Shown: piece by piece, positions 48,786-56,063 of the stretch
Position numbering within the stretch: position 1 is the first letter of the stretch
Layout of the letters: each line of letters begins with the position of its first letter
Source: a virus
Length of the DNA stretch: 64,000 nt
IMG/VR virus record: IMGVR_UViG_3300025030_000010
Coordinates: 1-64,000 of that record
Reading direction: 5' to 3' (one strand)
The notes under the pieces: generated by a model
The model's database searches: none
Told to the model about the DNA's origin: nothing
The model's input: the letters and a program-made list of their open reading frames with translations, nothing else
Made by a program: the position numbers and the translations under genes

Positions 48786-49883
48786 CTACAGATCGAGAAA
48801 GCCTTTAAGCTTTTCCTTAGCGAATACGTTGATGTTATTCGTGGGTGGAGCAATGTACTCGTGAGAGAAGCAGATACGCTCTACGTCCGTCTTCCACGTC
48901 CCGCCTAGCTGCCCCGCATTCACAACACAATTGCTGTTGTTTGAAGATGTCGCTCTCCAGAGAGGAGACTTGTTTCTGTGAGCGCCGAGCTTAGGATGTG
49001 TGACTCGTGAGTAGTAGCGATAACCTGCATTGATGTAGAGCTGCGCGACTGCGTTGCTGAACTTAACGCCTAGACCCATGCCCTGATAGTCAGGAAGAAT
49101 TACAGTGCGATGCGAGCGATAAGCGTTCTTTACAGTACCAGAGGGGAGAGGGAGAACAGCGATGAAGCCGATGATATTTTCCTCGAACTTCAAAGCGAAG
49201 CATCTCGCCGCTTTGTTCAGTGCCGAAGTTAGGTAGTGATGTGACTTAAACATTTCCCACAAAAACGAATCGCATGTGAGTATGTCAAGCTCGATTTTTG
49301 GGACTGGTTGGGGTAACCTCCGTTTGTATTTCTTCGTGTCCGTATTGTAAATCCAATCGGGCTGAAGCCAGTCGATGATATCGAAATGGCACGAAGCAAA
49401 CACAACGTTAGTGAGGCCCTGCTTACGGATATACTTCGAGATTGCGAAAGCGCACGACTTAGCGACGTTTCTATCAACTACAGACGTGAACTCGTCTATG
49501 ACGCATCCTGACTTCAATTTACGGGCAAGATTCGCTCTATACTGTTCCCCGTTGCTGAGAACATGAAAGGGCTTGAGCCAGCTAGGGATTGAGTTGAGTC
49601 CTACGGAGGTGAGCTTGTCGATAGCTTCGTCTGCGCTGCTGAAGTGAGAAGCGATTGCTTTCTTGCCGTCCCAGATAATCTCTTCATCTTCACCGAAGTC
49701 TTCGAGCAAGAGAGATTTGCCTGAGCCAGAAGCTCCGACGATTAAGCCGATGTTGAATTCGCCTGTGATGGTGGGTTTTTTGTGAAGAGTGAAAGTCGTT
49801 TCGCCTGTGAACTCGTAATCGAAAATCTTGCCTATCTCTTGCGATATGGCATCGAGTTTCACTTTAGACTTGATTTCAGCCAT
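48786..49883 (-). CDS. ABC-type ATPase fused to GNAT acetyltransferase
   Basis: 365 residues from ATG at 49883 after GGAGGTGCAGC. N-terminal ABC ATPase: Walker A GASGSGKS (50-57), signature LSNGEQ (~115), Walker B VIDEFTSVVDR (~133-143) and an H-loop-like SCHFD (~170). From ~225 a GNAT domain: VILPDYQGMGLGVKFSNAV with the Q/RxxGxG acetyl-CoA loop. The fusion corresponds to COG2401. No membrane protein or substrate gene lies beside it, so it is probably a soluble signalling or modification enzyme rather than a transporter. Its target is unknown. Confidence 0.85.
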   Translation of the reverse strand: MAEIKSKVKLDAISQEIGKIFDYEFTGETTFTLHKKPTITGEFNIGLIVGASGSGKSLLLEDFGEDEEIIWDGKKAIASHFSSADEAIDKLTSVGLNSIPSWLKPFHVLSNGEQYRANLARKLKSGCVIDEFTSVVDRNVAKSCAFAISKYIRKQGLTNVVFASCHFDIIDWLQPDWIYNTDTKKYKRRLPQPVPKIELDILTCDSFLWEMFKSHHYLTSALNKAARCFALKFEENIIGFIAVLPLPSGTVKNAYRSHRTVILPDYQGMGLGVKFSNAVAQLYINAGYRYYSRVTHPKLGAHRNKSPLWRATSSNNSNCVVNAGQLGGTWKTDVERICFSHEYIAPPTNNINVFAKEKLKGFLDL

Positions 49884-49914
49884 GCTGCACCTCCGTTGAA
49901 TCGGATTTTGAGTC

Positions 49915-49948
49915 AAAAAGAGGGCTCCCCGCGTTTGCGGAGAACCCT
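49915..49948 (-). terminator. Terminator after acidic winged-helix gene
   Basis: Stem AGGGTTCTCCGC/GCGGGGAGCCCT with two G-T pairs, loop AAAC, then CTTTTT on the - strand. The ABC-GNAT gene starts ~30 bases downstream. Confidence 0.8.
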
Positions 49949-54684: not shown

Positions 54685-55593
54685 TTAGAGGTCCTCTGTG
54701 TTGATTCGTCTGTCAACGATGTTGTAAGTTTGATCTTTGGCAACGTGTCCTGGCTTTATCGAGTTGCCTCGAACTGGTCGCTTGTCACGTTGAATTGCAC
54801 TTTGAAGTTTACTGAACTTGGAACGAAACGACTTGGCACAATGACACTCAGGCACATATTCTTTGGCAATGTTGAGTTTGTACCACTCAAGTGTCTTGTT
54901 GATTGTTGCAACGTCAATCTGTTCAATTTGATGTAGCAGTCTGAAGTGTTTGCTCCATGATTGTAGTGTTGAATCTTTTTGTTTCTTTCTGCCTATTGAT
55001 TGTAAGATTTCGTCAAGCTTCTGTGCAAATGAGATGTAGCGTTTATCTTTCTCTTTTACTTCTGACAGAATTTCTTCCGCTTCCGCCGTCGCGACTGCAA
55101 GTTGCGACAAAGAGGTTTTTGACTTTGACTTAGACTTTGGTTCTCTCTCTTCTTCTCTCTCCTGGTTCCTATAAGTTTTTGAATACGACCCTATAAGTTT
55201 TTTTATACGGGTAAAATCCGATTCGATCAGACTACCCTCTTCATTCAAAACATCGTGTATCATCTCTACCATTTTCTTGTAGCGTTTCGGATATTCATCG
55301 TCAATAAATATCCGACGATCTACTTCTTTCGAACCGCGCTTCTGAGTAGTTTCAACTGTGATGAATCCCCATTCTTTCAGCGCTGCTATTGAGTTTGAAA
55401 TGGTTTGAGGCCCAACTTGAAGAAGCTGTCCTAACCATCTGTTCGAAGCGTAACACCCTCTGGAGCTTTGAGATAGATTCCTCAAGTATCCAAATAGAAC
55501 TCTCTCGGTCATTGTCAACTCTGGGTGAAAGAGAAGTTCAGCGGGTATTCCTATTGACGGTAGACCAAAAGGATCGTCGCGCTTTTCTATCAT
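54685..55593 (-). CDS. Winged-helix replication initiator
   Basis: 302 residues from ATG at 55593, overlapping the previous stop (ATGA). Residues ~10-110 form a winged HTH (LTMTERVLFGYLRNLSQSSR, GCYASNRWLGQLLQVGPQTI, SNSIAALKEWGFITVETTQK). A helical region and a basic linker follow; C-terminal part likely contacts the loader. As with lambda O or DnaD-type proteins, it should bind the origin and recruit loader and helicase. The origin may lie in or near this gene or its leader. Confidence 0.75.
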   Translation of the reverse strand: MIEKRDDPFGLPSIGIPAELLFHPELTMTERVLFGYLRNLSQSSRGCYASNRWLGQLLQVGPQTISNSIAALKEWGFITVETTQKRGSKEVDRRIFIDDEYPKRYKKMVEMIHDVLNEEGSLIESDFTRIKKLIGSYSKTYRNQEREEEREPKSKSKSKTSLSQLAVATAEAEEILSEVKEKDKRYISFAQKLDEILQSIGRKKQKDSTLQSWSKHFRLLHQIEQIDVATINKTLEWYKLNIAKEYVPECHCAKSFRSKFSKLQSAIQRDKRPVRGNSIKPGHVAKDQTYNIVDRRINTEDL

Positions 55594-55817
55594 TGAATCA
55601 TTCTCTTTTCTCTGAGAGTTTTCATCGAACGCCTGACTGTGCTCTCCGACACGGCACATATCTTTGCAGTTTTTGCGATTGTGTTCGAATCGAGTTGAGT
55701 TATCGCGGCCCAGATGATTTTATCGTTAGATGATAAATCCGATCTTTCTAGCACCGCATTGATAACGAAACATCCTTGAAAAAATCCGTGAACGTCTAAT
55801 CTTTTGGACTCTGTCAA
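55590..55817 (-). CDS. Small HTH protein
   Basis: 75 residues from a TTG start 7 bases after AGGAGGTGTC. Contains SNDKIIWAAITQLDSNTIAK and ICAVSESTVRRSMKTLREK, a winged/HTH pattern similar to the N-terminus of the next gene. Could be a regulator or a partial duplicate of the initiator DNA-binding domain. Confidence 0.65.
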   Translation of the reverse strand: MTESKRLDVHGFFQGCFVINAVLERSDLSSNDKIIWAAITQLDSNTIAKTAKICAVSESTVRRSMKTLREKRMIQ

Positions 55818-55834
55818 TTTGACACCTCCTGAGC

Positions 55835-55883
55835 AAAAAAAATACCCGTCCCCAGAAGTGCCAGCTTCCGAGAACGGGTATTT
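55835..55883 (-). terminator. Terminator ending the leader RNA
   Basis: 10-bp perfect stem AAATACCCGT/ACGGGTATTT (55874-55883/55840-55849), loop of 24 bases with a weak inner stem, and eight T on the - strand at 55842-55835. Only 18 bases before the TTG start, so readthrough or an attenuation switch is needed for downstream expression. Confidence 0.8.
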
Positions 55884-56028
55884 AGGTAAAGCGAGATGTC
55901 TCGCTTCGACCGTTTCTTAAACTCATTCTGGCAAATGAGTCTGCATTGTTTGAGAGTTTGCGGAACGACAGGGGGCCGCTCCGCAAACTGGGTGTTACTC
56001 TGTGACGCTGGTTGCGTCGCATTCAGAA
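55835..56028 (-). ncRNA. Hairpin-rich leader RNA upstream of replication initiator
   Basis: About 190-base transcript predicted from promoter TTGACA-17-TATCGT to the terminator, with no ORF. Successive stems on the - strand: GACGC/GCGTC (56018-56014/56008-56004), a perfect 10-bp AGTTTGCGGA/TCCGCAAACT (55989-55980/55964-55955), ACTCATT/AATGAGT (55940-55921), AGCGAGA/TCTCGCT (55905-55890), then the terminator stem. Could be a small RNA, attenuator, riboswitch-like leader or part of the origin. Confidence 0.65.
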
Positions 56029-56034
56029 AGCTTG

Positions 56035-56063
56035 ACGATACAGTATCATTAAGATGATGTCAA
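56035..56063 (-). promoter_or_regulatory. Strong promoter of the leader RNA
   Basis: -35 TTGACA (56063-56058, exact consensus), 17-base spacer, -10 TATCGT (56040-56035) on the - strand, in the intergenic gap. Best -35 match of the promoters found. Confidence 0.78.

Follow-up and report, generated by a model that had tools for sequence, protein, structure and literature searches.

To our knowledge, outside lambda-like models little is known about the timing and dosage of replication initiators in virulent phages. In the IncI-alpha/IncB plasmids (ColIb-P9), the loop of a leader hairpin pairs with a downstream element to form a pseudoknot that controls the initiator RepZ. In phage lambda, the small oop RNA is made next to the initiator gene O from a unit with a promoter and terminator of its own, and it runs antisense to cII/O transcription. 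Lambdoid phages have antitermination RNAs that act in cis, such as the putRNA of HK022. This ~70-nt element of two stem-loops binds the zinc domain of the beta' subunit and acts on distant terminators (PMC9378689). Within the incomplete coverage of our literature search we found no described equivalent of the leader RNA analyzed here, the nearest systems in logic being putRNA and the plasmid antisense systems.

The window, that is, the whole stretch of DNA analyzed, is a 64-kb part of an uncultured virus record of 75,381 bases and showed no DNA similarity to cultured phages. The replication module around the leader is transcribed from the minus strand. As originally predicted, the leader lies directly ahead of a replication-initiation operon, identified by the PHROG matches of the initiator and, weakly, of the 75-aa gene that precedes it:

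57282-56365, minus strand: primase (PHROG 47)
56371-56084, minus strand: small ORF between the primase and the leader
55817-55590, minus strand: 75-aa protein with a TTG start, gene 1 of the operon (weak match to PHROG 8102, replication-initiation)
55659-54685, minus strand: replication initiator (PHROG 270/2880/391; HTH_36 slightly below the cutoff)
55168-55209, minus strand: two 20-nt iteron-like direct repeats within the initiator gene, a candidate origin
54743-54060, minus strand: DnaC-like loader
52797-51268, minus strand: DnaB-like helicase, farther along the module

Elsewhere in the window (48786-49916), a 376-aa protein has an unusual architecture, pairing a P-loop-like motif close to the N terminus with a GNAT acetyltransferase domain at the C-terminal end.

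The promoter, four hairpins, terminator, Shine-Dalgarno (SD) sequence and TTG start reported in the original prediction were all found in their places on the minus strand:

56063-56035, minus strand: sigma70-type promoter, TTGACA-17-TATCGT (10/12 match)
56063-56058, minus strand: -35 element, TTGACA
56040-56035, minus strand: -10 element, TATCGT, separated from the -35 by a 17-nt spacer
56018-56004, minus strand: hairpin 1, GACGC/GCGTC (from folding; outside the conserved core)
55989-55955, minus strand: hairpin 2, AGTTTGCGGA.../...TCCGCAAACT (from folding; outside the conserved core)
55942-55919, minus strand: hairpin A, identical to hairpin 3, AGACTCATT-TGCCAG-AATGAGTTT (from folding)
55933-55928, minus strand: kissing loop L1, UGCCAG, the apical loop of hairpin A
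55911-55885, minus strand: hairpin B, between hairpin A and the terminator, GGTCGAAGCGAG-ACAT-CTCGCTTTACC (from folding)
55883-55840, minus strand: intrinsic terminator T with a 19-pair stem (terminator scan and folding)
55864-55859, minus strand: kissing loop L2, CUGGCA, the 6-nt apical loop of the terminator
55842-55835, minus strand: T-run of the terminator, 8 T (U8 in the RNA)
55830-55824, minus strand: SD sequence AGGAGGT, directly 3' of the terminator (read from the sequence)
55817, minus strand: TTG start codon of the first gene of the operon

The promoter is the top-scoring promoter-like site within 54-58 kb and T is the sole terminator-like site in the same interval; ~190 noncoding nucleotides follow the promoter, and after them come the terminator, the SD sequence and the start of the initiator operon. 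The stem-loops lie directly 3' of the promoter-like site, whose earliness we assume from gene content. The end of the T-run is 18 nt from the start codon, SD sequence included (terminator-to-start spacing, 22 nt), leaving no space for a further promoter. Operon transcripts, whether initiated at this promoter or upstream, must therefore read through T, and no other cis feature argues as strongly for attenuation or antitermination as this obligatory passage. With a terminator between the only promoter and the start codon, attenuation, which the original prediction had put forward, holds up as the likely logic. Palindromes in the promoter spacer and -10 (ATCAT-ctta-ATGAT and GATAC-t-GTATC, read directly) are possible operators, as is the palindrome TGTCAAATTGACA across the start codon (55813-55825).

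The leader is strongly folded and apparently noncoding. The minus-strand RNA 56028-55835 has a minimum free energy (MFE) of -87.5 kcal/mol, compared with -49.95 +/- 4.66 for shuffled sequences (z = -8.06, 0/200), while the opposite strand of the region folds with z = -4.05. Among the scorable noncoding gaps of the window (at least 100 nt) the leader has the lowest minus-strand z, -5.1, a value that understates it because the gap caller cut the region at a spurious plus-strand ORF. No SD-preceded ORF was found on the minus strand of the leader. The originally predicted noncoding unit, structured and equipped with a promoter and terminator of its own, is supported. The Rfam covariance search that had been proposed returned no family: in the window no Rfam 15 family exceeded its gathering cutoff (best lower match, 19.8 vs 100 bits), and the leaders of relatives matched none in Rfam searches that included gathering and permissive cut-offs.

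The replication-initiator context could suggest an antisense attenuator of the pT181/pIP501 type or attenuation through a leader peptide, for which a 46-codon ATG ORF beginning at 56022 and ending at the terminator foot might be a candidate. However, this ORF lacks an SD sequence, the scan for sigma70-type sites revealed no plus-strand promoter reading into the leader (the plus-strand site at 56022 faces away), and prefix folds revealed no competing antiterminator helix, the 5' arm of the terminator being essentially unpaired. We consider this the least probable explanation of those weighed here; the leader RNA is sense to the initiator, and the antisense control once envisaged is not supported. 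Nor is the proposal that the leader is part of the origin: the iteron-like repeats found were limited to one pair with a period of 22 (CGTATTCAAAAACTTATAGG and a second copy mismatched at 2 positions), which sits inside the initiator gene, so that an origin role for the leader is not required. Lambda O likewise harbors origin iterons within the initiator gene, and the repeats of the window, as their candidate counterpart, suggest a lambda-like origin at this pair.

The apical loops of hairpin A and the terminator are complementary. L1 is the exact reverse complement of L2 (6/6), their duplex amounts to -8.4 kcal/mol, and an equally long match arose in 0.46% of loop-shuffle trials (p = 0.0046); in a looser test of the terminator loop against the upstream 150 nt, the match of the window is not significant (p = 0.099). 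The window thus combines a complement of at least 6 nt between a hairpin loop and the terminator loop with a location between primase and initiator, the start codon lying ~20 nt beyond the terminator. As DNA, TGCCAG and CTGGCA stand 63 bp from each other as an inverted repeat ahead of the initiator gene, and could instead represent, for example, initiator-binding origin sites whose sequence varies with the initiator. Yet the two copies occupy the apical loops of two hairpins with covarying stems, and the iteron-like repeats are found inside the initiator gene instead, which makes such a DNA-level role very improbable.

To extend the comparison beyond the window, we searched for relatives. The initiator as seed returned none and DnaB a single distant locus; among viral contigs, neither the exact stem nor a combined hairpin-plus-terminator pattern was matched, and another hairpin pattern recovered its own contig alone. 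Primase homology in IMG/VR yielded 6 and then 80 loci, and nine distant loci from a primase alignment against bacterial genomes were left out of the counts. The closest relatives by primase are L008 (60%) and L009 (55%); since none was found above 60%, covariation rests on diverged phages. L008 reproduces the layout of the window without alignable sequence, with TTGACA-17-TAATAT, hairpins, a 16-bp terminator and an SD sequence. Its hairpin and terminator loops read UUCGCAG and CUGCGAA, and those of L061 and L077 read GAGCCAG/CUGGCUC and AGGCGG/CCGCCU, respectively.

Stable folds are enriched in the gaps 3' of primase (z <= -3 in 23/57, compared with 12/147 other gaps of the same loci). The terminator-to-start distance in relatives is mostly 8-26 nt, and the genes 3' of the leader belong to replication-initiation families, with an HNH gene coming first in L008 and L143. 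Since the initiators of these loci are drawn from different families, the leader design follows position and not one protein. Some relatives are devoid of a terminator or of a loop match, and in Vibrio SSP002-type phages, which have the primase, no comparable noncoding leader was recognised.

We compared the complementarity of each terminator loop to its own leader with that to the leaders of other loci. In the discovery set, which was partly assembled by eye, the loop matched its own upstream 150 nt over at least 7 nt in 13/23 cases, compared with 71/506 cross-locus pairings. A second primase search, seeded with L077, provided 44 new non-redundant loci for validation, in which a terminator rule fixed beforehand identified 19 terminators. 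Complements of at least 6 nt were present in 17/19 own and 73/340 cross comparisons, and those of at least 7 nt in 11/19 and 28/340 (combined shuffle p ~1e-10), with the upstream partner usually residing in a small hairpin, within its loop of 6-8 nt. When strict loop-to-loop pairing of at least 6 nt was demanded, 14/23 own combinations (10/19 in validation) were positive vs 0/482 cross combinations. A slightly relaxed loop definition applied to 105 loci gave 22/53 initiator-proximal terminators vs 10/310 elsewhere, and 65/2742 cross pairs; the plus-strand cases among the ten (L081, L103, L111, L126, L130 and L152) look like the leader element shifted downstream by intervening genes. This separation was obtained by limiting the analysis to strong terminators with small loops, and a looser comparison with large loops separated poorly (at least 6 nt in 16/65 own and 895/4092 cross pairs).

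A lone 6-nt match is weak, and shuffled genomes contained 0-3 looser descriptor matches per strand, as would suit chance complementarity on an ordinary inter-operon terminator. Given the cross-locus controls and the recurrence of the match in relatives such as L008 and L061, where both position and frame are kept, we find this explanation scarcely probable.

For covariation analysis, 15 members with 8-nt A loops, including the window, were aligned gap-free by joining the two short elements and omitting the linker. Changes on both sides occurred in 4/4 A-stem pairs, 6/6 kissing pairs and 4/4 inner terminator pairs, and the covariation score (0.93 vs 0.24 in shuffles, 0/500) was lost upon sliding the partner by 1-3 columns. 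These rows were picked for complementarity, a choice that by itself makes the kissing helix pair at 100%, and the unbiased figures are those of the cross-locus controls. Judged from these sequences, the complementarity of the A and T loops co-evolves in relatives. Hairpin A, the middle hairpin and the terminator make up the conserved core, with the loop-loop match linking its elements, and the kissing-loop leader structure is well supported. The original prediction had named the stem AGTTTGCGGA as the strongest internal element and proposed a covariation test across relatives. That stem is indeed the strongest (15 bp in the MFE structure) but lies, like hairpin 1, outside the core; the covariation test succeeded, in the A-stem, kissing and inner terminator pairs. 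Leaders of this kind, with the loop of the terminator itself as one side of a loop-loop contact that co-evolves, appear to be uncatalogued in Rfam.

A GGAGUA/GAAAC internal loop, conserved in the terminators of L106, L113, L115, L127, L136 and L143 and absent from the window, L008 and L061, is a subfamily trait that membership does not require; it resembles the sarcin-ricin type AGUA/GAA module. Very long terminator hairpins are found in L048 (4460-4665), L066 (4440-4602), L083 (3480-3785) and L013 (4498-4672), in whose large loops stretches of 8-10 nt are complementary to the leader upstream; this would be the same idea carried out as a larger pseudoknot. In L024 (4500-4949) the promoter-plus-hairpin unit 3' of primase is duplicated in tandem. 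L002 carries, at 1024-1077, a Type-P5 twister ribozyme that scores 52.7 bits against Rfam RF02684 and exceeds the cutoff, and a noncoding gap outside the replication module of L035 (1180-1598) has an extreme fold z of -12.9.

We propose, with a probability of about 0.55, that the kissing-loop leader RNA serves the replication-initiator operon as a conditional terminator (attenuator) acting in cis. Transcription would start immediately 3' of the -10 element, and hairpin A would fold in the nascent RNA, presenting L1, followed by hairpin B in the middle; T would then form and L2 would dock onto L1. The majority of transcripts would end at T, releasing a structured ~190-nt RNA, and only readthrough polymerase would produce the mRNA for the HTH protein, the initiator and the helicase loader. 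From sequence we infer that A and T actually dock, that termination is the default and that readthrough is regulated. A-T docking alone would leave the terminator intact, and it may set the rate of termination or readthrough or create a binding site, whether for host RNA polymerase, the initiator or some other factor.

The released RNA could also be the main product, a stable trans-acting sRNA that docking renders compact and nuclease-resistant, with targets elsewhere and the initiator supplied by low, unregulated readthrough. The promoter, the strong terminator, the absence of SD-preceded coding content and the persistence of the conserved contact in the terminated RNA agree with this possibility, whereas a free sRNA would not need the near-constant spacing of 8-26 nt to the initiator start, and the free variation of loop sequences leaves no conserved target-pairing seed visible; we regard it as possible though unlikely. 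Because both complementary loops are present on every terminated leader, a free leader could pair with a nascent one from its own phage. Such a self-recognising copy-number device, tuning the initiator to genome number in trans through fast-changing, phage-specific loops, strikes us as quite unlikely. Put-like processive antitermination, in which the folded leader would bind elongating RNA polymerase and take it past its own and later terminators, fits the order of promoter, hairpins and then terminator seen in HK022 put. The terminators of put are, however, separate from the element, whereas the terminator of the leader supplies one side of the conserved contact, and we deem this mechanism highly unlikely. 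Under the preferred attenuator model, the kissing-loop leader, which occurs in dozens of uncultured phages with varied initiators, would be a simple, testable RNA switch with interchangeable and possibly orthogonal loop pairs.

In the leaders of other relatives the terminator contact is missing and the pre-SD/SD region has its complement in a hairpin loop or bulge: L002 (5195-5325), L017 (with the leader of L002), L009 (4440-4575), L010/L012, and the three-way-junction group of L039 (4785-4898), L072 (4785-4910) and L045 (2680-2806). The complements in such relatives include CCGACAA/UUGUCGG, CCUGUUA/UAACAGG, CUGCUA/UAGCAG, UCUCCA/UGGAGA and CUCCUCAG/CUGAGGAG. Pairs of this type differ between relatives (CUUAG/CUAAG vs UGUUG/CAACA), and the changes in L010/L012 look compensatory; these leaders are possibly a translational version. 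As a general rule, loop/pre-SD pairing was rejected, complements of at least 6 nt being found in 7/57 leaders and 14/147 control gaps, and in the window the leader loops match the pre-SD region of the initiator over at most 4 nt (p = 0.84).

Compared with known systems, the leader resembles lambda oop in having its own promoter and terminator next to an initiator gene, but oop is antisense and the RNA of the window runs in the sense direction. With pT181/pIP501 it would share premature termination in the leader of an initiator mRNA and a central role of loop-loop kissing; those plasmid systems use an opposite-strand antisense RNA to trigger termination and have an antiterminator that competes with it, and we found neither of the two in the window. 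Loop changes set specificity in plasmid incompatibility groups, as they would in the copy-number reading, but here the element is encoded on one strand. Relatives such as L002/L017, L039, L072 and L010/L012, with a loop complementary to the pre-SD region, are reminiscent of ColIb-P9 RepZ, whereas the partner in the window is the terminator loop and not the ribosome-binding region. HK022 putRNA, likened here by description and not by sequence, also forms hairpins in a nascent phage transcript near a promoter, 5' of a terminator and replication genes; the difference is that in the window the upstream loop would pair with the terminator's own loop.
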